NCBI GenBank assembly: GCA_030426585.1
Contig: JAUHYH010000004.1
Span: forward strand, 1-40,167
DNA from: Bacteriovoracia bacterium
GTDB lineage: Bacteria > Bdellovibrionota > Bacteriovoracia > Bacteriovoracales > Bacteriovoracaceae
Direction of reading: 5' to 3'
Length of the DNA stretch: 40,167 bases
Below the pieces are notes generated by a model, which worked only from the letters and a program-made list of their open reading frames with translations, had not been told where the DNA came from and did no database searches. Below are positions 17,588 to 32,788 of the stretch, piece by piece. Position 1 is the stretch's first letter. Each line of letters begins with the position of its first letter. The position numbers were made by a program, and so were the translations under genes.

Positions 17588-19783
17588 ATGTTGAATTTGA
17601 TCCTATATTACCAGACCCAGAGCCTTAACCAAGCGTTTTTTTCTAATAAGGAAAACCTTATTATTGTACCGGGTCCGGTCGAGGCTGATGAAGTTCGAAA
17701 GTCAGGAGCCTATGCAGAAGTTCGTACAATTGCTGAGTTTCTAAGAAACTTGGACAAGGATATTCGACCGACTAGAAAGTCTGAGCTTTATCACTTATTG
17801 GCAACACTTTGTAAGAATGTAGATCAAGAACTAAAGATATCTGAATTCGATGAAGTTTTTAAATGGTTAACAGATATTAGAAACAATATTGGAGATGAAG
17901 AAGTTATTGAAGAAATCTTTTCTCTTTTTGATGAAAAAACGTCTAAGTTACTGTTCTATTGTTCCGAATTTATTAATAAAAGCGATTATTTTGATGAAGC
18001 AAAAATTTATAAATGTTTAATAGAAAAAGAGAGGAGTCTTGAAAGAGGTAAGATTGTTTTTACAGGATTTAAGCATCTAAGTTCGCTACAATTAGACTTC
18101 TTGGGAGCCCTGGCAAAAGTTAATAATATCTTTGTAACAGCACCTTATTTGGTCTTTCAGAAATCAGAACATAATGATTGGATTCAATGGGGAAGTTTTG
18201 ATAATCAGGAAATAATAGATTCAGAAGGAGATCACATCGGATCTGTTCTTCCTCTAGAGAAGTCTCAGCTTGCAAAATTCTTAGGAACTCAAAAAAACGA
18301 AGGCTTTATTTATTTTTCAAATCAGATAAGCCTCGATAAGTTTGCAAAATTTGGTCAATATAAATCGCAAGCTAAGTTTTCAATTGACTACTTTAGAGTT
18401 GAAAAGGACTGGCTAAGAAAAGAATTTAGACAAGTTTCTTTAACTCCAATGAAGGTTGAGAAATTTCTTGAAGTACTCACGAAAGATGTAGGAAGGTATT
18501 TTAAAAGAAAAGAGCCCAAGAGATACAAAATTCTCCTTGATTTAAAAGAGCTCATTCTTAAGACACAAGACTTAACAGATGGACTGACTCATATTGATGA
18601 TTACTACTTTAGGCTCTTCCTGAATATTATTGATTTAAATCTTCCTCGAACTTCTCTGATTTCATCAAAGGGAAGTCAATTTTTCCTAACTCCAAGGGCC
18701 TATGAATTTGGAAATTTGAAAGCAACTATCGCTTTTTTGGATTCTGACTTTTTAAACACAAGCTACAGCTTCGACACGATGCCGATTGAATTAAAAACAA
18801 GGCTTGCCCAACTTGGAGTGATTAAAAGATCGAGTGTTGAAGAAAGTTATCATATGAGTCTTGTTCAGAACTACCTCTACAATGAAGATAATGTGCTTGT
18901 TTATGAAAAAACTGATGAACATGATGAAATTTTTAAAAACTATAATCGATTTGTGGTTAATTCTCCTAGAAAAAATGAAAACAAAAACGACTATTTACAG
19001 AAAGAAATATCTGAAAAAAAACCTCCTTATTTCTCAGCTTCAAGATTACAAACTTATAAAGATTGCCCAAGGCGATATCATTTCCAATATAGAACGGATC
19101 GACTTAAAGAGGCAGTCCTTAATGATGAAGTAACCGCTTTTGAAAAAGGGAACTGGGAGCATCAAATTATTAAGGATTATTTCGAAGGAAAAGAAAAATC
19201 TGAAATTTTTGTATCTGAGCAACTTGAAATCACTCTAAGCAATAAAAATATCAAAAGAGGTGAGTTAGAAGTTGTAAAAGCCGATTCATTAAGGCGAATA
19301 GAAAATGGAATAAGCTTTGTTAAGGAATTACTTAAAAACTACCCAGGAGGAAACTTCTCATTTGAAAAAAGTATAAACTCTAGCGATTTTAGGGGAAGCA
19401 TCGATTTATTAGTAGAGAGTGGCACCATTAAACTAGTTATTGATTTTAAAAGATCGAAGGGAAGTATTCCTTCTATGACGGAAGTGAAAAGTTTCGACTC
19501 TCTACAGGTTTTAGCTTACATAAATAGGGCCAATGTAGATGAAGGTTTTATCGGTGGGTATTTCTGTCTTGATACACCTGAAGACTCTTTATTCTTTGGA
19601 ACAGAAAAAAACTTAGGGAATTATCGTTGCCAGCCTTTTACAAAAGAGCAAGTTGAGCTTTATCGCGAATCCGAAAAAGCATTATGCTCAATAATCGAAA
19701 TGGATAAAATCTTTATCCCTAAACCGAGAAAAACACAGATTTGCACCTACTGTGACTTGAGGAATTTATGTCCAAAACAATAA
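17588..19783 (+). CDS. addB: AddB-like PD-(D/E)XK nuclease with Fe-S-type cysteines
   Basis: SASRLQTYKDCPRRYHFQYR, RGSIDLL...LVIDFKRSKG, ICTYCDLRNLCPK; directly upstream of an AddA-like helicase. Confidence 0.8.
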   Translation: MLNLILYYQTQSLNQAFFSNKENLIIVPGPVEADEVRKSGAYAEVRTIAEFLRNLDKDIRPTRKSELYHLLATLCKNVDQELKISEFDEVFKWLTDIRNNIGDEEVIEEIFSLFDEKTSKLLFYCSEFINKSDYFDEAKIYKCLIEKERSLERGKIVFTGFKHLSSLQLDFLGALAKVNNIFVTAPYLVFQKSEHNDWIQWGSFDNQEIIDSEGDHIGSVLPLEKSQLAKFLGTQKNEGFIYFSNQISLDKFAKFGQYKSQAKFSIDYFRVEKDWLRKEFRQVSLTPMKVEKFLEVLTKDVGRYFKRKEPKRYKILLDLKELILKTQDLTDGLTHIDDYYFRLFLNIIDLNLPRTSLISSKGSQFFLTPRAYEFGNLKATIAFLDSDFLNTSYSFDTMPIELKTRLAQLGVIKRSSVEESYHMSLVQNYLYNEDNVLVYEKTDEHDEIFKNYNRFVVNSPRKNENKNDYLQKEISEKKPPYFSASRLQTYKDCPRRYHFQYRTDRLKEAVLNDEVTAFEKGNWEHQIIKDYFEGKEKSEIFVSEQLEITLSNKNIKRGELEVVKADSLRRIENGISFVKELLKNYPGGNFSFEKSINSSDFRGSIDLLVESGTIKLVIDFKRSKGSIPSMTEVKSFDSLQVLAYINRANVDEGFIGGYFCLDTPEDSLFFGTEKNLGNYRCQPFTKEQVELYRESEKALCSIIEMDKIFIPKPRKTQICTYCDLRNLCPKQ

Positions 19784-22764
19784 GTCACGAACAAGATTTA
19801 GCAATTAAGAGTGAAAACGGCACGGTGCTTTCTGCGGGAGCGGGAGCAGGTAAAACCTTTGTTATTATTGAGCACTTTATAGAAATAATTCATCGTTATC
19901 GAGATAAAAAAGGTTCAGAGGGAATTGAAGATTTTTTAAGTAAGATTGTTATCATTACTTTTACAAACAAAGCTGCGAGAGAATTGAAAAAAAGAGTAGA
20001 GAATAAACTTAAACTTCTTTCTCTTGAAAGTAGCTTTTGGGAAAAGGTTTATGAAAATCGTTCGGTCTGTTTTATTGGAACGATACATTCATATTGCTTT
20101 TCGTTATTAAGAGCGTCTAAGGATTTAGAGTTTTCAAGGTTTGAAATCGTTGATGATGCAATGATAAAACAAAAAATCAAGCATGAGATCATAGAATATA
20201 TTGAAATTAATCCTCGGATTCTAGAGGATTTTTCCATAAAAGAGTTACAGCATTCTTTGGAAAAAATATTTTTCACACCACGGTTAAGAGTTCTTTGGGG
20301 AAAAGATCTAAAGTCTTTTGATGAAGATTCACTTATAGTTGATTTTTTTAATCTTTACCCTGTGGATATGAACTTCAGTTATGACAACTCTAAGAAACTA
20401 AAATGGGTTGAATTCTTAAGTTCTTTTGGAATGATGATAGAGGAGTCAGATCCGAAGAAGCGCTTAAGAAATCTTAGTCATTTATTTAATGATTTAAAGC
20501 GCTTGCCAACTCCAAGTAAAAAATCAGTTGCGCCAGAAGTCTCAAAAGCTTTCTCTGAAATAAAGGATCTGAAATCAGCATTGATAGAGTTTGCAGAGTC
20601 ATTGAATCGTTTTGATAAATCGTTAGAGTTAAGAGCACAAGAGTTACAAAAGTTGTTCTTTTCAGTATCAAAATCATATTTTGAGGATGGAAAAATTTCT
20701 TTTTCTGATATTGAGTATCTGATGCTAACGAACAAAGAATCAATTGAATCTAAAATTGAAGAAATTGTTGTGGACGAGTTTCAAGACGTTTCTTATACAC
20801 AGTTTGAAATTTTTAAAAATCTTGTGAAGGGAGATTTTAAAAAAATATTTGCTGTTGGAGATAAAAAACAAGCGATATATGGGTTCAGAGGCGGAGAAGT
20901 GTCGGTCTTCGAATCGTTAGCAGAGAAGATTACTAATAATTTGAGTATGATAGATAATTATCGTTCGTTTCAAAAAGTTGTTAAATTCAACAATGATCTT
21001 TTCCAGCCTGAGTTTCCACTCGAGAAAGTTCAAAAACCTCAAATAGAAGAAATGGGAGAAGTTTGCTTTTATGATATAGAAACTTCGAATGAAGAACCGG
21101 ATCTGAAAATACTTGAAACAGAGGCCCTTTTTAGTGTTGTACTTGAGAAACTGGAAGCTGGAGTTAGTGAGTTAGCAATACTTTACCGCTTTATGCCTCC
21201 TGCTCAAGATTTAATGAGACGACTAATTGAGCATGATATTGGATTTCATTGCTCTTTAAAAATTGCAAAAAGCCGTGATCCAATGTTGTCTATTTTTACA
21301 CATTTACTAAGTTTCAAAGTAGAGAAACAGGCAATAGAAAATGCAGCATTTTTTATTCAAGGTTATTTTGATTATTTAAATATACCTGTCACGGGTTTGT
21401 TGGATGCGATTAAAGACTTTAGTTCATCTTTAAGTTTTATGGGGCTCGATATTTCTTGGATTCGCTTTCTGTCTAGGCTTGGCGTTGATTATGGCCATGT
21501 CGATCTACACCTAAATGAAATACAACAATTAGAGGGATATTACGCGGGATCACGAACAAAGATTTTATATGCTTTAAAAGAAACAGCAGACGAAAGAATT
21601 GAAATTAATGTTTCTAGTAAATTATCTCAAGCCAAAATTCACCTTATGACTGCACATTCATCAAAAGGCCTTGAATTTGAAGAAGTAATCGTTGCGAATA
21701 TTCTTACTAATAATAGAGGGCGTAGCGATCATTTAGTTTTGGGTGAAACCCCTCTGTCTTTTAGTTATAAATACGAAAATAAACGGTATCTTACTCCGCG
21801 GTTTTTACTAGAAAGAAGAGAGTCAAGTCTCAAGCAAGAAAAAGAGTCTTTAAGGCTTTTTTATGTGGCTTGCACAAGAGCAGTGAAGAAACTCTCTTTT
21901 ATAACTGGTTTAAAATTTCACGAGAAAGTGAAAGAAAAAACTTGGGGGTATTACCTTCAAAACAATCTTCCTGATTCAAAAAAATATGATGTGAAAGATT
22001 TAAAAGTTGAGAAGTTAAGTGAAATTCGACCAATAGAACTTTTTCAAGATCTTGATTTCCAGATAACTGGAAATCAAAAGTTATATAATGTGAGCATCAT
22101 GCCTGAAGTTTCTGTGGCAAGACTATCACTTTTGAAAATTTGTCCCAAAAGGTTTTTCATAGAAGAGATTATTGGACTTGATGAAAAAGATTATGTTGTA
22201 AAAGAGAATTCGGGAGCGGGAGTAGTATCATCGGCAGAAAGAGGCACAAAAGTTCACGAGGAAATTTCCAATTTCTTTTTAACGGGTAAGCTTCCCAAGG
22301 GAAAACCTTATGAATATTTTCAAAAAGTGTTTAAGGAGTATGAATCTTTTTCCATAACCTCTGAAAAAGAAATGAAATTTCAGGTTGAAGGAAAAATGAT
22401 TAGCGGAACCCCTGATCTTGTGCTTGAAAAAGGTAGCGTTTTGGAAGTATGGGATTTTAAAACCGGAGCGCAAAGCACAGATAAAAATTTAATCTATCTT
22501 ACTCAAGCTTCTCTCTATTTATATGGTTGGATACAAAATCATCAAAAGAGCTACGAAAAAATTGTTTCAAGAGTTCTATACCTAGATGAGGGGATAACTG
22601 TAGAACAAGTCTTTAAGGGCATTTCCGAATTGGAAAGTGAAATCGAGAATCTAATTTCTCGGGTATATTTTTATCAAAAAGAATATCCGGAACATCCAAG
22701 CGAATGTTCATGCAAAGTTTTTTTTCCGACAGAATCGGTTTTGTCAGATAATCAAGTATCTTGA
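19768..22764 (+). CDS. addA: AddA-like UvrD/Rep helicase-nuclease
   Basis: Walker A SAGAGAGKTFVI, ITFTNKAARELKKRV, IVVDEFQDVSYTQFE, GDKKQAIYGFRGGE, LMTAHSSKGLEFEEVIV, LFYVACTRA, nuclease GTPDLVLEKGSVLEVWDFKTG. Confidence 0.93.
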   Translation: MSKTISHEQDLAIKSENGTVLSAGAGAGKTFVIIEHFIEIIHRYRDKKGSEGIEDFLSKIVIITFTNKAARELKKRVENKLKLLSLESSFWEKVYENRSVCFIGTIHSYCFSLLRASKDLEFSRFEIVDDAMIKQKIKHEIIEYIEINPRILEDFSIKELQHSLEKIFFTPRLRVLWGKDLKSFDEDSLIVDFFNLYPVDMNFSYDNSKKLKWVEFLSSFGMMIEESDPKKRLRNLSHLFNDLKRLPTPSKKSVAPEVSKAFSEIKDLKSALIEFAESLNRFDKSLELRAQELQKLFFSVSKSYFEDGKISFSDIEYLMLTNKESIESKIEEIVVDEFQDVSYTQFEIFKNLVKGDFKKIFAVGDKKQAIYGFRGGEVSVFESLAEKITNNLSMIDNYRSFQKVVKFNNDLFQPEFPLEKVQKPQIEEMGEVCFYDIETSNEEPDLKILETEALFSVVLEKLEAGVSELAILYRFMPPAQDLMRRLIEHDIGFHCSLKIAKSRDPMLSIFTHLLSFKVEKQAIENAAFFIQGYFDYLNIPVTGLLDAIKDFSSSLSFMGLDISWIRFLSRLGVDYGHVDLHLNEIQQLEGYYAGSRTKILYALKETADERIEINVSSKLSQAKIHLMTAHSSKGLEFEEVIVANILTNNRGRSDHLVLGETPLSFSYKYENKRYLTPRFLLERRESSLKQEKESLRLFYVACTRAVKKLSFITGLKFHEKVKEKTWGYYLQNNLPDSKKYDVKDLKVEKLSEIRPIELFQDLDFQITGNQKLYNVSIMPEVSVARLSLLKICPKRFFIEEIIGLDEKDYVVKENSGAGVVSSAERGTKVHEEISNFFLTGKLPKGKPYEYFQKVFKEYESFSITSEKEMKFQVEGKMISGTPDLVLEKGSVLEVWDFKTGAQSTDKNLIYLTQASLYLYGWIQNHQKSYEKIVSRVLYLDEGITVEQVFKGISELESEIENLISRVYFYQKEYPEHPSECSCKVFFPTESVLSDNQVS

Positions 22765-22821: not shown

Positions 22822-23571
22822 ATGGATCTTGTTATGAGAAAAATGCAAAACATCCTAGTGGCTTATTTTATTCTTATTTTTTCTATTCCTGCTTTTGCTG
22901 CGGAAGATAACACCGTAGATTTTGAGTGGTTGGATGATGATAAAGAAATTTATGTTTTACAAAATAGGAAGTTTAGAAAAGATACTCGTTTTAATCTTTC
23001 ACTATTAGGAACAATAAATTTGTCTGAATCATTTGTAGACACTATTGGTGGTGGATTAAAAGGGGCATATTTTTTCTCAGAGAACTGGGGGATTGAGATT
23101 GCTTTAGGACTTGGATCGCAATCAGAAAATAATAGCTTTAAAGGTGTTCGAGAACAAAGTGCACTTGCCTTTTATAGATCAATTACAAGTTATACCGCTG
23201 CTAGTGTTGTTTGGACTCCATTCTATGGAAAGTTTAATACTTTTAATTATATCTATTATTTAGATTGGTTTTTGAGCTTAGGTTTAGCCAATGTATCGAC
23301 TGAACATAATGGAAAAACATTTACTCTTGCAGGTGGGGCAATCGGATCAGGTCAACAAGTCCTTGAGAAAGACAGTTCTGCAGGATTAACTTGGTCGACA
23401 GGACTTTATTGGTATCTCACTAAAATGATGAGTATCAGGTTTGAGTTTACCGGATTTCATTATCAAGCAGATCGTTACACATCGGCTACGGTTAATAATG
23501 CAAACCCGGATACTAATAAAATCTGGTTTCACAATTATAATATGAGTGTTGGTTTAAATTTCATGTTCTAA
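22822..23571 (+). CDS. Outer-membrane beta-barrel protein of the TPR/TonB/TolQR cluster
   Basis: Signal peptide (ILIFSIPAFAAED), glycine/aromatic-rich barrel pattern, C-terminal NMSVGLNFMF. Confidence 0.8.
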   Translation: MDLVMRKMQNILVAYFILIFSIPAFAAEDNTVDFEWLDDDKEIYVLQNRKFRKDTRFNLSLLGTINLSESFVDTIGGGLKGAYFFSENWGIEIALGLGSQSENNSFKGVREQSALAFYRSITSYTAASVVWTPFYGKFNTFNYIYYLDWFLSLGLANVSTEHNGKTFTLAGGAIGSGQQVLEKDSSAGLTWSTGLYWYLTKMMSIRFEFTGFHYQADRYTSATVNNANPDTNKIWFHNYNMSVGLNFMF

Positions 23572-23591
23572 AAATATAAGGAAGAACACGG

Positions 23592-24992
23592 ATGTTCAGA
23601 ATTATTGGAAGTCTTTTAATTATTTTATCTTTTTCGGGAAATCTCTATGCGAGAAAAAAGCTATCTCACGATAGAGTACTCGAAATTTATCGAAAAAATA
23701 TTACTTATGCTTATGATAAAGGCTTTGATTACTCAGCAGTTGCTTGGATAAAAGAGTACCTTTATCTTTCAAATGGGATTATTCCTTCCGATATGACTCG
23801 TTATATAAATAGAGCGGTTTTAAAAGTAGGGGCGAAAAACTTTCAAGGTTTGAACTTAAAGGTTCTTAATAGAGGAAGAGGTTCCGTTTTTAGATATATT
23901 GCGGCCAAAAAACAGTTTTCTCTTGGTAAATATCAGGAAGCAAAAGCAGAATTGAAACGAATTAGTGGGAATAGTGCTTTCTACCCTTTCGCTCTCAATT
24001 ATCTTGCGGTCATTAATTATTTAGAGAAACAATATTCTCGATCTTTGGAGTATTTCAATACTTGCATTGCAATTTCTGATAAAGAAATGGGTAGTAAAGA
24101 TAGAGACAACTATATCTATAAGCAGTACAAAGTAAATCGAGATATTTGTATCGCTGGTAAAGCAAGAGTTTTTTATGCACAAAGAAAGCTAGATCGTGCG
24201 GATTTTCTTTATCTTGACCTTGATAAAAGTTCTATCGTTTGGCCAACTGTTTTAATTGAAGAGGCATGGAGCAGCTATTATCAACAAAACTATAATAGAA
24301 CGCTTGGTAAGCTTGTAACTTACAATGCACCTTTATTGCGATACTTCGCCAATCCTGAGATCTATGTCTTAAGAGCAATGAGTTATTTGAAACTTTGCCT
24401 CTATCCTGATGTGAACTATGTAGTTGAAGATTTTTATAAAAGATTTGAAAGCTTAGCCGGAAGAATTGAAAGAATTCTAGATAAGAATAGAAAAGGAAAA
24501 ATATATTATTACAACTTGGTGGATTCTTATCGAAGTATGAAAGATCAAGAACTAATGTATGTTATTAAAGGTATTTATAAATCTCCGAACATCAAAGCTT
24601 TTATTGATAATGTTAAGAATGCAGAAATAGAGCGAAACAGAATATATAAGATTGGTAGCGGTATAATCAAAAAGTCTCTACTCAGTAACATTAATGATTT
24701 TATCCTGACACAGAAAACAGTTATAGGGATTGCGGCGAAGGCAAAGATTCAAAAGCATGCGTTTGATCTAAGAAAAGCCTTTCAAGCGATGAGTTATATG
24801 AGACTCGAAGTCTTGGGTCGAAGAAAAGAATCTCTATACTTTGACAGAAAACTAACGGGTAAAAGAGGAGATGTTCGATATCTCGATAGAAATGATAAAC
24901 AATACTTCTGGAACTTCATTTCAGAATTTTGGTCAGATGAACTAGGTGATTATGTCTTTACACTGCCTTCGGAGTGTCCGAATGAAAAATAA
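23592..24992 (+). CDS. Exported TPR-like protein (GltC/D-like by context)
   Basis: Signal peptide; helical repeats such as AAKKQFSLGKYQEAKAELKRISGNSAFYPFALNYLAVINYLEKQYSRSLEYFNTCIAIS. Confidence 0.75.
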   Translation: MFRIIGSLLIILSFSGNLYARKKLSHDRVLEIYRKNITYAYDKGFDYSAVAWIKEYLYLSNGIIPSDMTRYINRAVLKVGAKNFQGLNLKVLNRGRGSVFRYIAAKKQFSLGKYQEAKAELKRISGNSAFYPFALNYLAVINYLEKQYSRSLEYFNTCIAISDKEMGSKDRDNYIYKQYKVNRDICIAGKARVFYAQRKLDRADFLYLDLDKSSIVWPTVLIEEAWSSYYQQNYNRTLGKLVTYNAPLLRYFANPEIYVLRAMSYLKLCLYPDVNYVVEDFYKRFESLAGRIERILDKNRKGKIYYYNLVDSYRSMKDQELMYVIKGIYKSPNIKAFIDNVKNAEIERNRIYKIGSGIIKKSLLSNINDFILTQKTVIGIAAKAKIQKHAFDLRKAFQAMSYMRLEVLGRRKESLYFDRKLTGKRGDVRYLDRNDKQYFWNFISEFWSDELGDYVFTLPSECPNEK

Positions 24993-27834
24993 AATTCTAC
25001 TATTTTTAGTATTTACGACTTCGGTTTTCGCTGAATCAGTCACAGAGAAGAGACAAGAAATTATTAATATTATTAATGAAGAGATTAAAGAAGTTAATCG
25101 TCTTTCTCGCCAATATAAGCAAAAAAACCCGAGTGTTCTTTTTAGAAAGTCAGAATTGTACTTAGAAAAAGGTCGGATCGTAAAAGAAATTGAAAATGAA
25201 AAGTTTCTAGAACTCTCTGTGCAAAAAAGACGAAAAGTAAGAAAAAACGATTACTTTAAAGGGTCTTACAGTCTTTTTGTAAGAGCAAGATCAGTCGCGA
25301 CTCAGTTATTAAAGAGTTTTCCTGGCTATGATAGATCATCTGATGTTTATTATATTCTTGGATTTAATGAGAAGGAATTTGGTTCAAATAAAAAAGCACT
25401 CGAATACCTTCAAAAGGCTGAAAAGTATGCCAAGCCTGGTTCAAAATCTCAAATAAGAGCTCAGAACGCTCTCGCAGAAATTTATTACAATCAAAAGAAA
25501 TACAGAAAAGCGATTGATTATTATGAGAAAAATCTAAAAATTCTCAAAGATCGCTGGTGGACCAAGGACGCTTATAACCTCTCATGGTCACACTTCAGAA
25601 TTAGAAATTACGAGAGAGCGATTGATCTGATGAAAAAGGTCGAAGAGCTTAGTAAGAAACCTCAATACATAGATATGAGCGGTCAAGTAGAAAAAGACAT
25701 TGGTCTCTTTTATGCTGAGTCGGGAAAGATTAGAGAGGGTGTAGAACACTATAAAAGATACGGGAAAGATTACACTTTAGAGCTCATTACAATTGCAACT
25801 TTTTTAAGAGAGCAAGGAAAGTACGCTCAGGCGCTCTCTGTTCTAACTGAAGCTTTGAAAATTAGTAAAACAGATAAGAATCGAGCAAAAATTCTTATTT
25901 CAAGAATTCAACTTTTTGATAAATACGAGAAGTTTAACTATCACTTAAAAGATTGTATTTCACTCTATAAACTCACTAAAAATTATGAGTTAACAAGTGA
26001 TCAGAAAGAACTTTTTAAATTTCAAATCAAACGACAGGTAGGGAAACTTCAGAAACAGATCGCGAATCCTACTTACAAGAAATCAAAAGCAGTTACAGAG
26101 CAAAAGATTAAAGCTGTTGTAAGTTATTTGGCTTTATTAAAAGACCTTGAACCAAACAAGAAGGATGATTCAAACTTTTATATGGCAGAGACATATTACC
26201 AAGGTGATTTTTTCGATAAAGCAATTGACAGTTACCAAGCAGCATTTAAAGAGGCTAGTAAAAGAGGCGATAAAAAAATAATGAAGCTTTCAATGGAAGG
26301 AATGCTTTCAGCGATTGGTCAGCCAATGTCTAAATTTCCAAATAGAGATAAATATATTTATCCTGTTTTTAATTCATATCTCGCTTATGATTCAAGGTCG
26401 ACAAAAGCAAAAGAAATTTACAAAAGACTTTATAAAAATCAGTATGAGAAGAAAAATTCCGTTGAGATGAAGAAGCTTCTTACCAAGTATGCCAATCTCT
26501 TTCCAAAAGATGTGAAAAACCAAGAGAAGATGGTTAACTCATTAATTGAGGTTTACAACAACAAGAAAGAAACAGGGCAGCTTGCACTTTTAATGTCTGA
26601 AATTTCAGATGGTAAATTTAAAATATCTTCTAAAACCAAGAAAGAATTGTTTGCGGTTTATCAAAAAATTGAAATTAAACGAATTGAGCAAGATCTTGCA
26701 AAGGGTAATTATAAAGAAGCAATCAATGGTTATCTTAAAATTTACTCAAATGATAAAACCACAACAAAGGCAAGAGCGAACGCTGCTTATAACTTAATGG
26801 CAATATCCTTGAAAGGTCAGAAGCTTCAGGAGACATATAACTGGGGCCTTAAAGCTTCCAAAATTATGACGGATAAGGATTTCTATACTTACAGAAGTTC
26901 TTTCTTGTCTGTGAGTAAATATCTTTTTGAACGACTTCAATTTAGTGCTTCTGCCGATCTTTCACATAGGACACTTGGGAAAATTTGTAAGGCTAAAACA
27001 AAGCTTAAGTCTCAATTTTTTAATAATGCTGTTATTAACTATAGAGCTCATGGGAATATTAATAAACTGAAATCATTAAGAAGACTCGTGAAAATTTGTG
27101 GCTTACCAACAAGTTCATTAGTCCTACTTGATAGAGAAGTATTAGGCCTTTATCATGAAAGTCAAAAGTATGAGAGCCTTGGTCTTTATATTGGATCAGT
27201 AAGAGGGAATAAAGAAATTCATCCTGATCTCGCATATTACTCTACTCTTATTTATAACTATTATTTAGAAAAGAAGATTTTCTATAAATTAAAAGAATGG
27301 AAAGCGACAATTCTTAGCTATTATAATTCAAGTCAGAAAATGAATAAAAAGGTTCCCGTGCAAGTCTTGGATTCAATTGCAAGTTTTAATATGGGAAGCC
27401 TTGAAAGTTTGGATAATAAAATTGACCAAGTTAAGCTTTCTTTTCCTGAAAGTGTTTTTAACTCAAGGTTACAAAGAAAATTGCAAATGCTAAACTCGCT
27501 TACTGCAGAAGCTCTAAAAATCCAAAAGATTGGTTCTGGAAGAGGAATCGTTACTGCTTTTGAAATTCTCGTTTCCTCATATTTGAAAGTCGCTGAAGAA
27601 ATTAACGTTTTTGAACCAAAAGGTAAAAGTCCTCAATACGTTGCAAGCTTTAAGAAGTCGATGAGAGAGATCATTTCTCCGTTAATCAAAAAAGCCAATG
27701 AATATGAAAGACAAGCCCAAAAAATTATTAGCAAAGATGAGATCCTGACTGAGTACAAGAGTCGATATCGAAACTTTAGCTATAATGTTTTTGATAATAT
27801 GAAGTTTTACGATTATGAGAGGGTGGGAAGATGA
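24982..27834 (+). CDS. Large exported TPR-repeat protein (GltD/AgmU-like by context)
   Basis: MKNKILLFLVFTTSVFAES signal peptide; many TPRs (e.g. AQNALAEIYYNQKKYRKAIDYYEKNLKIL; NFYMAETYYQGDFFDKAIDSYQAAFKEA). Confidence 0.82.
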   Translation: MKNKILLFLVFTTSVFAESVTEKRQEIINIINEEIKEVNRLSRQYKQKNPSVLFRKSELYLEKGRIVKEIENEKFLELSVQKRRKVRKNDYFKGSYSLFVRARSVATQLLKSFPGYDRSSDVYYILGFNEKEFGSNKKALEYLQKAEKYAKPGSKSQIRAQNALAEIYYNQKKYRKAIDYYEKNLKILKDRWWTKDAYNLSWSHFRIRNYERAIDLMKKVEELSKKPQYIDMSGQVEKDIGLFYAESGKIREGVEHYKRYGKDYTLELITIATFLREQGKYAQALSVLTEALKISKTDKNRAKILISRIQLFDKYEKFNYHLKDCISLYKLTKNYELTSDQKELFKFQIKRQVGKLQKQIANPTYKKSKAVTEQKIKAVVSYLALLKDLEPNKKDDSNFYMAETYYQGDFFDKAIDSYQAAFKEASKRGDKKIMKLSMEGMLSAIGQPMSKFPNRDKYIYPVFNSYLAYDSRSTKAKEIYKRLYKNQYEKKNSVEMKKLLTKYANLFPKDVKNQEKMVNSLIEVYNNKKETGQLALLMSEISDGKFKISSKTKKELFAVYQKIEIKRIEQDLAKGNYKEAINGYLKIYSNDKTTTKARANAAYNLMAISLKGQKLQETYNWGLKASKIMTDKDFYTYRSSFLSVSKYLFERLQFSASADLSHRTLGKICKAKTKLKSQFFNNAVINYRAHGNINKLKSLRRLVKICGLPTSSLVLLDREVLGLYHESQKYESLGLYIGSVRGNKEIHPDLAYYSTLIYNYYLEKKIFYKLKEWKATILSYYNSSQKMNKKVPVQVLDSIASFNMGSLESLDNKIDQVKLSFPESVFNSRLQRKLQMLNSLTAEALKIQKIGSGRGIVTAFEILVSSYLKVAEEINVFEPKGKSPQYVASFKKSMREIISPLIKKANEYERQAQKIISKDEILTEYKSRYRNFSYNVFDNMKFYDYERVGR

Positions 27835-28679
27835 ATAGTTTTTTAATATCTTTATTCTTGCTCATATTCGCTTGGAGTTGTGCCAGTACAAATAAGGAAT
27901 CGGGACTTGATGAAGAGTTTAAAGTCGTTAAAGAGATTCCTTATCAGAAAAAAGCCGAAAGAATTTACTCAGAAAGAGGTGGTTTTTTTACTGAAACGAC
28001 AGATGGGCTTTATGAAGAGCCTTCTAATTCAGATGAAATTATTCGGATCACACAGAGGTGTCGTGATAAAAGAATTACAGAAGGGCTTGAAGTTGCCTCA
28101 AACGCCTATGGACAGTTCAAAACATGGCCAACATATTGGAATGCTATCGGGATCTGTTATCTCATAAATAAGGATTTTTATAAGGCTAAGCTTTACTTTA
28201 ACAGGGCACTTGAAGCGGATAAAAAGTACGCCCCTGCTTTGAATAACTTAGGATTACTTTTAATTGCAAAATCAGAATGGGAAGCAAGTCTCTTAGCTTT
28301 TAAGTCGGCACTTAAACAAAACTCAAGGTCTCAAGTTGTAAATTATAATCTCGGAAGAGTTTACTTAGCTTATGGTCATGGCTCTAAGGCATTGGCTCAT
28401 TTTACCAAAATCAATGATTCTAAATTCTATAAAGAGAAGTTGGCTCCTTTTATGGGAGTAGCACATTCACTTGCAGGACAACACTCTAAGGCACTTGAAA
28501 TTCTCGAATCTCTTTATCAGGAAGATTCAAATAATGAGATGGTAAGACTCTTCTTTGCTTACTCTCTTAAGAGTTCAGGAAAGATTGCTTATGCTAAAAA
28601 AGTTATTGAAGGAATGGGCATCGGTTCTCAGAATCCTAACTATCCCTTGTTCTATGACTTAAAAAGAGGGCTGAATTAA
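27831..28679 (+). CDS. TPR lipoprotein (GltE/AglT-like by context)
   Basis: MNSFLISLFLLIFAWSCAST lipobox-like N-terminus; TPRs (WNAIGICYLINKDFYKAKLYFNRALEADKKYAPALNNLGLLLIAKSEWEASLLAFKSALKQ). Confidence 0.8.
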   Translation: MNSFLISLFLLIFAWSCASTNKESGLDEEFKVVKEIPYQKKAERIYSERGGFFTETTDGLYEEPSNSDEIIRITQRCRDKRITEGLEVASNAYGQFKTWPTYWNAIGICYLINKDFYKAKLYFNRALEADKKYAPALNNLGLLLIAKSEWEASLLAFKSALKQNSRSQVVNYNLGRVYLAYGHGSKALAHFTKINDSKFYKEKLAPFMGVAHSLAGQHSKALEILESLYQEDSNNEMVRLFFAYSLKSSGKIAYAKKVIEGMGIGSQNPNYPLFYDLKRGLN

Positions 28680-28945
28680 TGAAGTGGTTATTGATTTTAT
28701 GTTTTTTGGTTCCCCACTCTTTTGCTCAGAAAAGCAAAGGAAAGAGTTCGGGAAAAAGAAAAATTATTTATAAGTACAAAAAGTTTGAAAGCTTTGATTT
28801 TGAAAACATCTCCGTAGAGGGTGATACTACTTCTCCGGGGGATATTTCGGTAAACCCGAGATTCCGAGTCAAATTCAAAAATAAGCTACCGGAAAAAAAG
28901 TCTTTTAATACCGAGACGTTAGATTCACTTGATATGATACAGTAA
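28679..28945 (+). CDS. Small exported protein within Glt/Agl-like cluster
   Basis: 88 aa, signal peptide MKWLLILCFLVPHSFAQ; start overlaps the upstream stop codon. Confidence 0.7.
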   Translation: MKWLLILCFLVPHSFAQKSKGKSSGKRKIIYKYKKFESFDFENISVEGDTTSPGDISVNPRFRVKFKNKLPEKKSFNTETLDSLDMIQ

Positions 28946-28966
28946 TAAAGGATTGTGTTGTAAGTC

Positions 28967-30904
28967 ATGGAAGGACAGTTAGAACTCTATCAGTTAAAAG
29001 GGCAATCTAAAGCTGCTCGTGTTAAGTCGAGGCCACTCTCAAGTGGTCGCTACCTTATTGGATCAATTGATACCTGTGGTATTCAAGTTAGTGATCCTTC
29101 AGTTAATCCGATTCATGCCGTTTTAGAAGTTACTCCTGCGGGAAGTAAAATCTATAGTTTAAATGCTGACAGTACTCTTCTTATTAACGGAGAAAAACTT
29201 CCTGTTGCGACTCTAAAGGCTGGAGACACAGTAAAAGTCGGTAACGTTGTTCTTGATTTTGGAAAGTACGAGAAAAGCTCTGAGTTACCAACAGTTCCAA
29301 CAAGTGAATTCCCTAAAGAGGGAACGAAGTCAAAAACAAAATCGGCAATAACTCAAGAGTCAGTGAAGGCTCCTCACTTAATTTATCCTTTTGATCAAAA
29401 CTATAACTTTGATTCCAGTGAATATATTTTTGAAGATAATGAAAATATTTATCCAATTTTTAAATACGATCTAAATAAGTATGCAGTTGAAGTCATTATT
29501 ATTCATAAAAAGAGGATTTTTTCTGTAGATTATATTCCAGAGATTGAAGGGATGTATCACTTAGCTGGAGTTGAGAAAAGCGAAAAAGATATTCGCTATC
29601 CTTATCTTGCTGAAAAAGATGTTGCTGATTTTGTTGAATGTCGTGGAGGATCTTTTTTCGTAAATAAACTTCCAGATTATAGCGTTCAGCTTTTTTCTGA
29701 TAATCCTAATAAATTGGAAGGCTCTACAATTAACCTTGATAAAGATGATGTCATCAGTTTTCAAAAGGGCGATCTTTCGATTGTTGTTAGAAGTGTAGAT
29801 TCACCTCCGTTTGTTACTCCACCGCCATTACTCCCAAGGGATAAGTCATTACTCATGATGATGTTTTTGGCATTTCTTTTAGTTACAGTTCCAATGTATT
29901 TCATTTTCAATATGGAAATTGATAAAGAGAAAATCGAGAAAGAAAAGGCGCCAGAGCGGATTGCAAAAATTCTTTATAATAGAAAACAGTTTCAAAAAAT
30001 TGAAAAACCAAAGCCTATAAAGAAACCTGAGCCAAGGAAGACAAAGCCGACACCAAAGCCGAAGCCTACGCCTAAGCCGAAGCCAGAGAAACCTAAGCAG
30101 GCGAAGCCAAAACCGAATCCGAAGACACCTCAAAAGAATAAACCGATTAAAGGAACACCTCCAAAGGTTAAGAAACCAAAACCGATTCCAGCTCCACCGA
30201 AGCCAAACCGGAAGCCTAAACCGGCAACTCCTAAGAAGAGTAAAGCTCCAGGTAAGAGAAATACAAATACGACGAGAAAGTCACCGACGCCTAAGACAAG
30301 AGGAACGGTAGACGTCTATAGAAACAATAATTTTAAATCTACAGTGAGTGCACTTCTTTCCAAGGGTGGTGAGTTCAAAGGGATAAAAACTCAAGGTGAT
30401 AGTGCGGGATCTGTAACTGCTGCAACTTCGGCGAGCGTCTCGGGTGGAGGCGGTAGCGTTAATACTGCGAATGTTTCAGATCAACTGGGAACACCAACAG
30501 GTTCAAGAGATGGAGTGCAAACTTTCGATAGTGGGGCCGAAGGTCTTACAGGAGCAAAAACTTTTTATACGGCAGGAATTCCATCAGAAACTGTAATCGT
30601 CGGTTCAATGGATCCTGATATTATTAGAAAAATTCTTAGAGATCATATTCCTCAGTTCCGTTTTTGTTATCAAAAGGAACTAGATAAGAGCAGTTCAAGA
30701 ACTCAAGGGGTTGTGAAAATGATTTTTACAATCGGAGCATCGGGGTCAGTTACTCGTGCAGGAGTTCAAGGAGCATCTTCACTTCCTGCGGCGGTCAAGG
30801 GTTGTGTGGCGAATGTTCTTAGGGGAATTCAGTTTCCTAAGCCACTTGGTGGAGGAAGCGTTGAAGTTAAACAACCAATTAACTTTTATCCTCGCTCTAA
30901 GTAG
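28967..30904 (+). CDS. FHA-like domain + TM + Lys/Pro-rich linker + AgmX/PglI-type C-terminal domain (GltG-like)
   Basis: N-terminal FHA-like GRYLIGSIDTCGIQVSDPSVNPIHAVLEV; TM SLLMMMFLAFLLVTVPMYFIF; KPKPTPKPKPEKPK linker; C-terminal FRFCYQKEL...GVVKMIFTIGASGSVTRAGVQGASS...GCVANVLRGIQFPKP. Confidence 0.88.
   Translation: MEGQLELYQLKGQSKAARVKSRPLSSGRYLIGSIDTCGIQVSDPSVNPIHAVLEVTPAGSKIYSLNADSTLLINGEKLPVATLKAGDTVKVGNVVLDFGKYEKSSELPTVPTSEFPKEGTKSKTKSAITQESVKAPHLIYPFDQNYNFDSSEYIFEDNENIYPIFKYDLNKYAVEVIIIHKKRIFSVDYIPEIEGMYHLAGVEKSEKDIRYPYLAEKDVADFVECRGGSFFVNKLPDYSVQLFSDNPNKLEGSTINLDKDDVISFQKGDLSIVVRSVDSPPFVTPPPLLPRDKSLLMMMFLAFLLVTVPMYFIFNMEIDKEKIEKEKAPERIAKILYNRKQFQKIEKPKPIKKPEPRKTKPTPKPKPTPKPKPEKPKQAKPKPNPKTPQKNKPIKGTPPKVKKPKPIPAPPKPNRKPKPATPKKSKAPGKRNTNTTRKSPTPKTRGTVDVYRNNNFKSTVSALLSKGGEFKGIKTQGDSAGSVTAATSASVSGGGGSVNTANVSDQLGTPTGSRDGVQTFDSGAEGLTGAKTFYTAGIPSETVIVGSMDPDIIRKILRDHIPQFRFCYQKELDKSSSRTQGVVKMIFTIGASGSVTRAGVQGASSLPAAVKGCVANVLRGIQFPKPLGGGSVEVKQPINFYPRSK
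30001..30300 (+). repeat. Low-complexity Lys/Pro-rich coding repeat (TonB-like periplasm-spanning linker)
   Basis: Recurring AAR-CCN codons (aagccgaagcctacgcctaagccgaagcca). Confidence 0.85.
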
Positions 30905-31011
30905 TAACCACTGATATTTGTTTATAGGCAGAATTTCCCTCAACTGTCGCCGTTTCCAGGCTAAGTTTAAGATATTATTAAGGATTTAATTTAATTAACA
31001 GGAGTAGAACC

Positions 31012-31710
31012 ATGGAAGGTCAAGATCCGAATCAACTTATTGAACAAGGAATGCAAGTTGGTGCAGAGCCAGCATCATTCATTGAACAGTTAATATTGTT
31101 CTTTCAGGATGGTGGGGTTTTTATGTACATCATCGCTGTCATCTGGGCAATTGGACTTGTCATTGCCTTTGATAAATTTAGAAAGCTTAAGTTCAATTAT
31201 GATGTTGATGGTGCTTCTTTCATGAACGAACTACAGAGATATGTTCTTTCAAATGATATTCAAGGAGCAATTCGAGTTTGTTCTGGATCGATTGCAGCTC
31301 TTCCACGAGTTTTAAAAAGTGGTCTTAAGAGAGCGTCACAATCACCTGCTCAAGTTCAGAATGCTATCGATGCAACAGCATTAGAGGTTATCCCTAAAGT
31401 AGAAAAGAGATTAGGTTATCTTTCTTTGATTGCTAACATCTCAACTCTGCTAGGTCTTCTTGGAACAATCTTTGGATTGATTCAATCATTTGCCGCGGTT
31501 GCTGCAGCTGACCCACAACAAAAAGCTGAGCTTTTATCAAAAGGGATTTCCAAGGCCATGAATACAACTGCACTTGGATTATGTGCCGCGATTTCAATAA
31601 TGGTGATCCATGCGTTTCTTGTAAGCCGATCAGAGAAAATCGTTAATGAAATTGATGAATTCTCAGTGAAGCTTCTTGATTTACTAGGAACTAAAAACGA
31701 AGAGAACTAA
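31012..31710 (+). CDS. MotA/TolQ/ExbB proton-channel family protein (AglR-like)
   Basis: LGYLSLIANISTLLGLLGTIFGLIQSFAAVA and GISKAMNTTALGLCAAISIMVIHAFLVSR. Confidence 0.93.
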   Translation: MEGQDPNQLIEQGMQVGAEPASFIEQLILFFQDGGVFMYIIAVIWAIGLVIAFDKFRKLKFNYDVDGASFMNELQRYVLSNDIQGAIRVCSGSIAALPRVLKSGLKRASQSPAQVQNAIDATALEVIPKVEKRLGYLSLIANISTLLGLLGTIFGLIQSFAAVAAADPQQKAELLSKGISKAMNTTALGLCAAISIMVIHAFLVSRSEKIVNEIDEFSVKLLDLLGTKNEEN

Positions 31711-31712
31711 TT

Positions 31713-32252
31713 ATGTACTCAATGCCTAGTGGCCGAAGAAAAGGTAAAAACGATAGTAAAAGACTGAATCTAGTTCCAATTCTAGATTCGGTCTTCATCT
31801 TGATCTTTTTCTTGCTCCTTTCAGCGAGTTTTTTAAAGATCTATGAAATCAATAGTAATGTGCCGATCATTTCAACGACTCCACCGCCTCCAAGTAAGAA
31901 AAAACCTTTGGGGCTTACGATGGAAATTTCTCCGAAGAAATTGATTGTTAAAATAGGTGAAGCTCCTCAAAGAACGATCAAGGTTTTTGATTTCAATGAA
32001 ACCGAAGAATCTTTTCCTTACGAGGAAATTCATAGTTTTATGTTAGACCTTAAGAAGAAAAATCAAGACGAAAAAACGATTGTTTTTGAACCAAATACTG
32101 AGGTTGAATACGATGTCATCGTTAAGATCATGGATGCGGTTCGAATGATCCGAAAAACCGATGATGCTATTTTTACGAAAGATAAAGATGGGATTGATGT
32201 TAAAGTTGAGGCCCTTTTTGATGATATTATTTTTGGAAATATCACAAGTTAA
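31713..32252 (+). CDS. ExbD/TolR family protein, copy 1
   Basis: RLNLVPILDSVFILIFFLLLSASFL with conserved TM-proximal Asp. Confidence 0.88.
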   Translation: MYSMPSGRRKGKNDSKRLNLVPILDSVFILIFFLLLSASFLKIYEINSNVPIISTTPPPPSKKKPLGLTMEISPKKLIVKIGEAPQRTIKVFDFNETEESFPYEEIHSFMLDLKKKNQDEKTIVFEPNTEVEYDVIVKIMDAVRMIRKTDDAIFTKDKDGIDVKVEALFDDIIFGNITS

Positions 32253-32263
32253 CGGAAGAATTT

Positions 32264-32788
32264 ATGGCTAGAAATAGAGCAATTCGAAAAAGAGGTAGAA
32301 GAAAAAAGCTTGATTTAATGGAGCTCGATATCACGTCTCTTTTAGATATCCTTGTTATCCTTCTCGTTTTTCTCTTAAAGAGTTATAGCACTTCAAATAT
32401 TATCATTAATGTACCAGAAGGAATTACACTTCCGACCTCTTCATCAGAGTCTCCGAATAATCAGGGTGTTATTATTCAAATTTCAAAAGAAAAAATTTGG
32501 GTCAATAACACAGAAGTTGTGGACTACGTGAATGAGCCCAATCGTTCAAAAATCTATGCTCATGGGGGAAGGCTTGTCACTCCTCTTTATGATGAGCTTG
32601 TCAGAGTTAAAGAAAGTATTGAGCTTACAAATAAACAGGCGAATATCGATAAAGCATTTTCTGCTGTTACGAATTTGGTTGTGGATAAAGAGATTAAATA
32701 TATCGAAATCAAAAGAATTCTTTACACTGCCGCTGAGGCAGGATTTAAGTCATACAAATTCGTTGTAATGAGCGAAGAACAATTTTAA
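32264..32788 (+). CDS. ExbD/TolR family protein, copy 2
   Basis: LMELDITSLLDILVILLVFLLKSYS with conserved Asp; VDKEIKYIEIKRILYTAAEAGF. Confidence 0.88.
   Translation: MARNRAIRKRGRRKKLDLMELDITSLLDILVILLVFLLKSYSTSNIIINVPEGITLPTSSSESPNNQGVIIQISKEKIWVNNTEVVDYVNEPNRSKIYAHGGRLVTPLYDELVRVKESIELTNKQANIDKAFSAVTNLVVDKEIKYIEIKRILYTAAEAGFKSYKFVVMSEEQF

Follow-up and report, generated by a model that had tools for sequence, protein, structure and literature searches.

A conserved nine-gene Glt/Agl-type cluster in Bacteriovoracaceae encoding a putative trans-envelope motor of separate lineage

Introduction

The organism whose DNA is analyzed here comes from a lineage of predatory bacteria. In Myxococcus, machines of the Glt/Agl kind power gliding, for which GltA, GltH, GltJ and GltK are needed. 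The Glt/Agl core complex of the Deltaproteobacteria was described by Luciano et al. 2011, with four sets in Bdellovibrio (Bd0828-0838, Bd1473-1483, Bd2368-2377 and Bd0412-0420). The published core (Group B of Luciano et al.) comprises gltC, gltD, gltE and gltG together with aglR, aglQ and aglS, and Bdellovibrio, too, normally lacks GltH-K (PMC3169522). GltG, which is TonB-like, binds AglR (PMC5349195), and mutual binding has been described for GltA, GltB and GltC (PMC4488436). A 2026 review calls the gliding motor of the Bdellovibrionota unidentified (PMC13104615).

This study concerns a stretch of 40,167 nucleotides (the window) from contig JAUHYH010000004.1 of a Bacteriovoracia bacterium of the family Bacteriovoracaceae (assembly GCA_030426585.1). 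The machine encoded there is of an already known kind, that of the core complex of Luciano et al. 2011, and not of a new one; what can be added is that one cluster is singled out as the family-wide core copy beside two accessory ones, and that its motor is assigned to a lineage.

Organization of the locus

Analysis of the open reading frames of the window with family models revealed a complete Glt/Agl-type set of nine collinear plus-strand genes, spanning 22822/22834-32788 in the order barrel-gltC-gltD-gltE-gltF-gltG-aglR-aglQ-aglS, all co-directional (Table 1). The genes gltC and gltD overlap by 11 bp, with gltD starting at the ATG at 24982 (the GTG at 24946 in the ORF list is merely the longest possible start), gltD and gltE by 4 bp and gltE and gltF by 1 bp, and aglR and aglQ are spaced by 2 bp. 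The first-pass annotation, which had proposed a nine-gene collinear cluster with overlapping start and stop codons, composed of a barrel, three TPR-containing proteins, a protein with FHA and AgmX/PglI tail, one TolQ/ExbB and two ExbD proteins, is thus borne out in layout and composition. A chance grouping of the nine genes is ruled out, since all nine lie within 20 kb in 14 of 20 sampled loci of relatives, most of the others being cut by contig ends.

The cluster is preceded by a UvrD-type helicase gene (19768-22764) and followed by a thioredoxin gene convergent to it; its neighbours overall are helicase-nuclease genes, thioredoxin, RDD and polA. Scans for promoters (29 found, 32 expected) and terminators (8 found, 6.7 expected) were at chance level, and the borders of the transcript are therefore left unclaimed.

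Table 1. Features of the Glt/Agl-type cluster (positions in the window)
Feature	Coordinates	Strand	Remark	Model match
GltB-like outer-membrane beta-barrel, signal peptide, 245 aa	22834..23571	+	ATG at 22822 also possible	TIGR04565
GltC-like periplasmic TPR protein, 466 aa	23592..24992	+		NF033756
GltD-like exported TPR protein, 950 aa	24982..27834	+		TPR_2 5.6e-16
GltE-like TPR lipoprotein, 282 aa	27831..28679	+		TPR_1 2.8e-13
GltF/CglF-like small exported protein, 88 aa	28679..28945	+		NF033764
GltG-like protein: FHA, one TM, Lys/Pro linker, TonB-like AgmX/PglI tail, 645 aa	28967..30904	+		NF033760 3.7e-33
GltG FHA domain, cytoplasmic side, residues 29-92	29051..29242	+		PF00498 8.8e-7
GltG AgmX/PglI C-terminal (TonB-like) domain	30608..30886	+		NF033768 65 bits, above cut-off
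AglR, TolQ/ExbB/MotA-family proton-channel subunit, 232 aa	31012..31710	+		PF01618 6.3e-27
AglQ, TolR/ExbD-like	31713..32252	+	TM Asp25	PF02472 2.1e-12
AglS, TolR/ExbD-like	32264..32788	+	TM Asp28	PF02472 2.5e-12

In gene order the cluster is identical to Bd0828-0838 from the GltB-like barrel through AglS; the order barrel-C-D-E-F-G-R-Q-S stands in Bdellovibrio at L139 and L148. All seven published core genes are clustered at the window, joined by gltF and the GltB-like barrel; this, together with the usual lack of GltH-K in Bdellovibrio as well (PMC3169522), leaves the earlier suggestion of a reduced or repurposed version unsupported. The other part of that proposal, a Glt/Agl-like trans-envelope motor related to the Bdellovibrio clusters, agrees with the family models, with the Bd0828-0838 gene order and with the AglR trees described below. 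Unlike the Bdellovibrio sets and the Luciano core, the cluster has one barrel rather than GltA and GltB, the second barrel (GltA) being absent from it. GltA-, GltH-, GltJ- or GltK-like proteins were not found within it. With the M. xanthus gliding machinery (G1, G2 and M1) it shares GltB-, C-, D-, E-, F- and G-like parts and a motor of one TolQ and two TolR subunits, but these are encoded at one locus instead of three and the motor is not an orthologue of AglRQS.

Outer module and force transducer

All five exported proteins begin with stretches resembling signal peptides or lipoboxes. In NCBIfam model searches the barrel scored 92 bits against TIGR04565 (cut-off 60), and a profile built from its family scored 59 bits with the second barrel of B. 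bacteriovorus HD100. By the same profile the single barrel is nearer to the Myxococcus ORF in the GltB position (44 bits) than to that in the GltA position (22 bits). GltC matched NF033756 (E 8.7e-32) with 110.6 bits, short of the 450 set as Myxococcus equivalog cut-off; structure prediction gave a helical, TPR-like solenoid with a pLDDT of 86.8, and its PDB fold matches were mainly to TPR superhelices. GltF matched NF033764 over nearly the whole model (E 4.9e-7). GltD gave TPR matches and no Glt-specific one among the family models, and GltE matched the GltE model NF033758 at only 2.7e-6, as one among other TPR models; these two assignments are therefore based on TPR content, position and profile matches to HD100 and Myxococcus homologues, the GltD family profile scoring 161 bits with the GltD of Bd0828-38 and 95 bits with the Myxococcus C9 GltD.

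The HMM comparison proposed by the first-pass annotation thus yields matches of GltC, GltF and GltG to NCBIfam gliding models. GltC, GltE, GltF and GltG all stay under the gliding equivalog cut-offs, the glt proteins far below them; since the Bd0828-38 proteins of HD100 fall below them likewise, these cut-offs are best read as Myxococcus-specific. Family-built profiles recover the corresponding protein, in the corresponding place, in both Bdellovibrio and Myxococcus.

GltG has a single predicted TM helix at about residue 295 and a linker rich in Lys and Pro. The helix is without SxxxH, the pattern of the TonB/TolA motor-contact motif (an SHLS motif with a conserved His; PMC12204202). Two cysteines are invariant in the alignment of the tail domain, which was modelled as alpha-beta-beta-alpha-beta, confidently for about residues 100-190 of the modelled fragment. 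The eight best PDB fold matches of the tail were all TonB/TolA-type C-terminal domains, none with E <0.001, and PDB sequence searches returned FHA and TolQ/ExbB relatives only. Apart from the three GltGs, no GltJ-like long tail protein was found in the whole genome (91% complete), in keeping with the absence of a GltJ-like component noted earlier.

Lineage of the motor

The motor residues are intact: Asp25 of AglQ and Asp28 of AglS lie inside predicted TM helices, and AglR carries GLLGTIFG and NTT. The presence of TolQ, TolR and TonB-like domains, that is, of 5:2-family motor subunits with a TonB-like C-terminal domain, could also fit a canonical Tol-Pal or ExbBD-TonB energizer serving envelope integrity or nutrient uptake amid unusual neighbours, a reading which we regard as highly improbable. 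Searches with the window AglR scored 97-486 bits for Agl-type proteins versus <60 bits for TolQ/ExbB types of the same genomes. In the AglR tree a 100/99 branch separates the 52 Agl-type rows from TolQ/ExbB, and the same separation received 91/89 with fewer rows. On these trees AglR is placed among the deltaproteobacterial Agl motors and not with the Tol-Pal or ExbBD proteins, the grouping that had been named as speaking against a Glt/Agl relation, and the Tol-Pal/ExbBD reading of the window motor is rejected. In addition, the genome has a separate TolQ (contig C76), ExbB/ExbD sets (C15 and C178) and MotAB, all away from its Glt/Agl clusters. The window cluster is without TolB, Pal or a TonB-dependent receptor, and differs from those systems in its two TolR subunits, FHA domain, TPR solenoids and GltG helix lacking SxxxH.

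For comparison, genome G062 was taken as B. bacteriovorus HD100, its four Agl loci agreeing in number with the operons published for it (PMC2797640, PMC3169522), and its locus at 1402 kb was taken as Bd1473-1483. The Myxococcus reference (G141) is Myxococcus sp. CA023, whose MglA is identical to that of M. xanthus (the query being an exact match to the PDB entry) and whose AglR (245 aa) and AglQ (162 aa) on contig C55 have the lengths published for M. xanthus (PMC3169522). MglA is also encoded in the genome of the window. A further MglA, sharing 99% identity with the Myxococcus protein, occurs at L058 (BNCN01000011.1), titled Comamonas sp. KCTC 72670, probably a mislabelled genome.

The three motor types of the family form one clade (98/98 for AglR, 100/100 for AglR, AglQ and AglS together), indicating that the three sets arose within the lineage and have no one-to-one match to the four Bdellovibrio sets. 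A constraint uniting the family motor with the M. xanthus-type AglRQS/Bd0828-0838 group was rejected (AU p 0.0002), and the motor lineage is distinct from that of Bd0828-0838 (AU p 0.0004), which rules out the window motor as an orthologue of either. In the unrooted tree it groups instead with the HD100 1402-kb locus and the second Myxococcus motor (100/100), a placement less secure than the AglRQS/Bd0828 rejection because of the long branch of the 1402-kb row. The likeness of the cluster to Bd0828-0838 in gene order is accompanied by a motor of separate lineage, nearer, on that unrooted tree, to Bd1473-1483 and the second Myxococcus motor.

Copies in the genome and distribution in the family

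The count of paralogous clusters that had been proposed as a check gave two further nine-gene sets besides that of the window. One, on contig C146, is complete in the order barrel-C-F-R-Q-S-D-E-G. The other is split over two contigs: C153 carries R-Q-S-D-E-G-C up to the contig end, and the missing part is probably that on C199 (C-F-barrel); no end overlap between the two contigs was found, and their unity is suggested by locus L218 of a relative, where the exact gene order of C153 and C199 stands on one contig.

Counting the genome of the window itself, 35 of 37 family genomes have window-type AglR (66-76% identity in the relatives), and the window-type cluster is the copy kept also in genera with one cluster only. 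Judged by this distribution, the window cluster is the family-wide core copy and the other two are accessory. GltC-type proteins reach further, to 134 of 141 Bdellovibrionota genomes; in the GltC tree, which contains long Myxococcus and HD100 branches, the position of the window relative to these is not fixed.

The arrangement of the motor genes varies. In the window and in L198 aglRQS is co-directional with gltG, as in Bdellovibrio, and in all other members showing both halves (L194-L197, L199, L200, L202, L203 and L205-L212) it is turned to face gltG. Members with inverted aglRQS form, with the remaining members, one group of the AglR tree (97/96) beside the window and L198. At L212:426-4307, gltD and gltE are apparently fused in one frame of 1293 codons.

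Proposed machine and its use

From the components with their domains, the motor residues, the family-wide conservation and the Glt/Agl relation, we infer complex formation, a force cycle and a biological role, and consider it likely that the nine gene products together make up a single proton-driven force machine spanning the envelope, used for traction in prey contact and for surface gliding. AglR with AglQ and AglS would form a 5:2-type inner-membrane motor driven by proton flow, to which the TM helix of GltG would be coupled. The FHA domain of GltG may sense or tether cytoplasmic partners, and its Lys/Pro linker would span the periplasm to the TonB-like domain. This domain would pull cyclically on the outer-membrane module of barrel, GltC and GltD solenoids, lipoprotein GltE and GltF, and would thereby shift surface contacts relative to the cell wall. 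Such a proton motor with a TonB-like arm is the simplest reading of the motor residues and the tail fold, taken with the published GltG-AglR and GltA/GltB/GltC contacts.

As to its use in this lineage, traction in prey contact and surface gliding, with entry into biofilms, appears most likely. The role in the organism of the window is taken from Bdellovibrio mutants: in a transposon mutant of the AglS gene Bd0838, prey attachment, killing and rounding fail (PMC6561027), and mutants of Bd1481 (aglR) and Bd1483 poorly reduce thick biofilms (PMC2277423). As the window motor lies outside the AglRQS/Bd0828-0838 clade, the transfer of gliding and attachment functions from there is weak, and the three paralogous sets of the genome imply a different task for at least some of them, Nfs in Myxococcus spores being an example.

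Nfs is the model for the alternative that the same architecture moves not the cell but a surface polymer or outer-layer component during envelope remodelling. In Myxococcus, Nfs moves the spore-coat polymer by means of a Glt-like complex and AglRQS (PMC5349195, PMC3858216), and the order barrel-C-D-E-F-G recurs at L155, a putative nfs locus. The four Bdellovibrio operons, moreover, are not expressed alike, as three of them go up in host-independent growth only (PMC2797640), and the three sets in the present genome would suit such divergent uses. Unlike Nfs, which borrows AglRQS from elsewhere, the window cluster has its motor inside the operon; no polysaccharide export genes adjoin it, its flanks being those given above, and its retention even in one-cluster genera suggests a basic function. 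We accordingly hold a transporter of this type to be unlikely, and favour the traction and gliding machine.

Probable replacement of the engine in a sister genus

In genus g6 of the same family, window-type AglR was found in none of the 14 genomes. In ten of these no protein scored above 45 bits with the window AglR, and the other four had a remote Agl-like protein (32-35% identity; G155:C9, G156:C42, G157:C29 and G149:C113). This absence is provisional, the genomes being fragmented, though all 14 agree and one (G033) has only 6 contigs. Two genomes, G033 and G101, were read in detail. Loci L214 and L216 of these genomes, flanked like the window cluster by helicase, thioredoxin, RDD and polA genes, are its orthologues and keep barrel-C-D-E-F; gltG and aglRQS are absent. 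A TolQ-like gene with one TolR-like gene and a short gltG is found apart from them (L246, L247) and inside a second Glt cluster (L215, L217), each of the two Glt sets being matched by such a motor.

The short gltG has 361-383 codons and is without FHA; the GltGs of both genomes carry SxxxH in the TM helix, seen in none of the other GltGs examined. The TolQ-like proteins group with TolQ (99/94), and close relatives of them are present in all 14 g6 genomes, in two copies in most. In the GltC tree, GltC of the g6 loci falls within the window-type and C146-type clades, which argues for an old outer module and a new engine.

The Glt conduit thus probably takes interchangeable engines, g6 having replaced AglRQS by a TolQ and single-TolR motor acting with a short SxxxH GltG without FHA. 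A description of such an exchange was not found in the literature searched, although this does not prove it to be new. If this is true, g6 is a natural experiment in which the outer Glt module would need a TolQR-class motor and a TonB-like tail, and in which FHA and the two TolR subunits are assigned to AglRQS; FHA and the second TolR would then belong to Agl-specific coupling or regulation and not to force transmission itself, which bears on why Agl motors carry two different TolR proteins.

Two further gene arrangements were observed among the sampled loci. Small lipoprotein-like proteins consisting mainly of an AgmX/PglI tail are encoded beside or away from motor genes (L022:2703-3107, L023:1642-2058 and L246:6954-7349), and at L016:382-2642 ExbD comes after ExbB-like genes in tandem, the leading one of which has a long N-terminal extension (438 aa).
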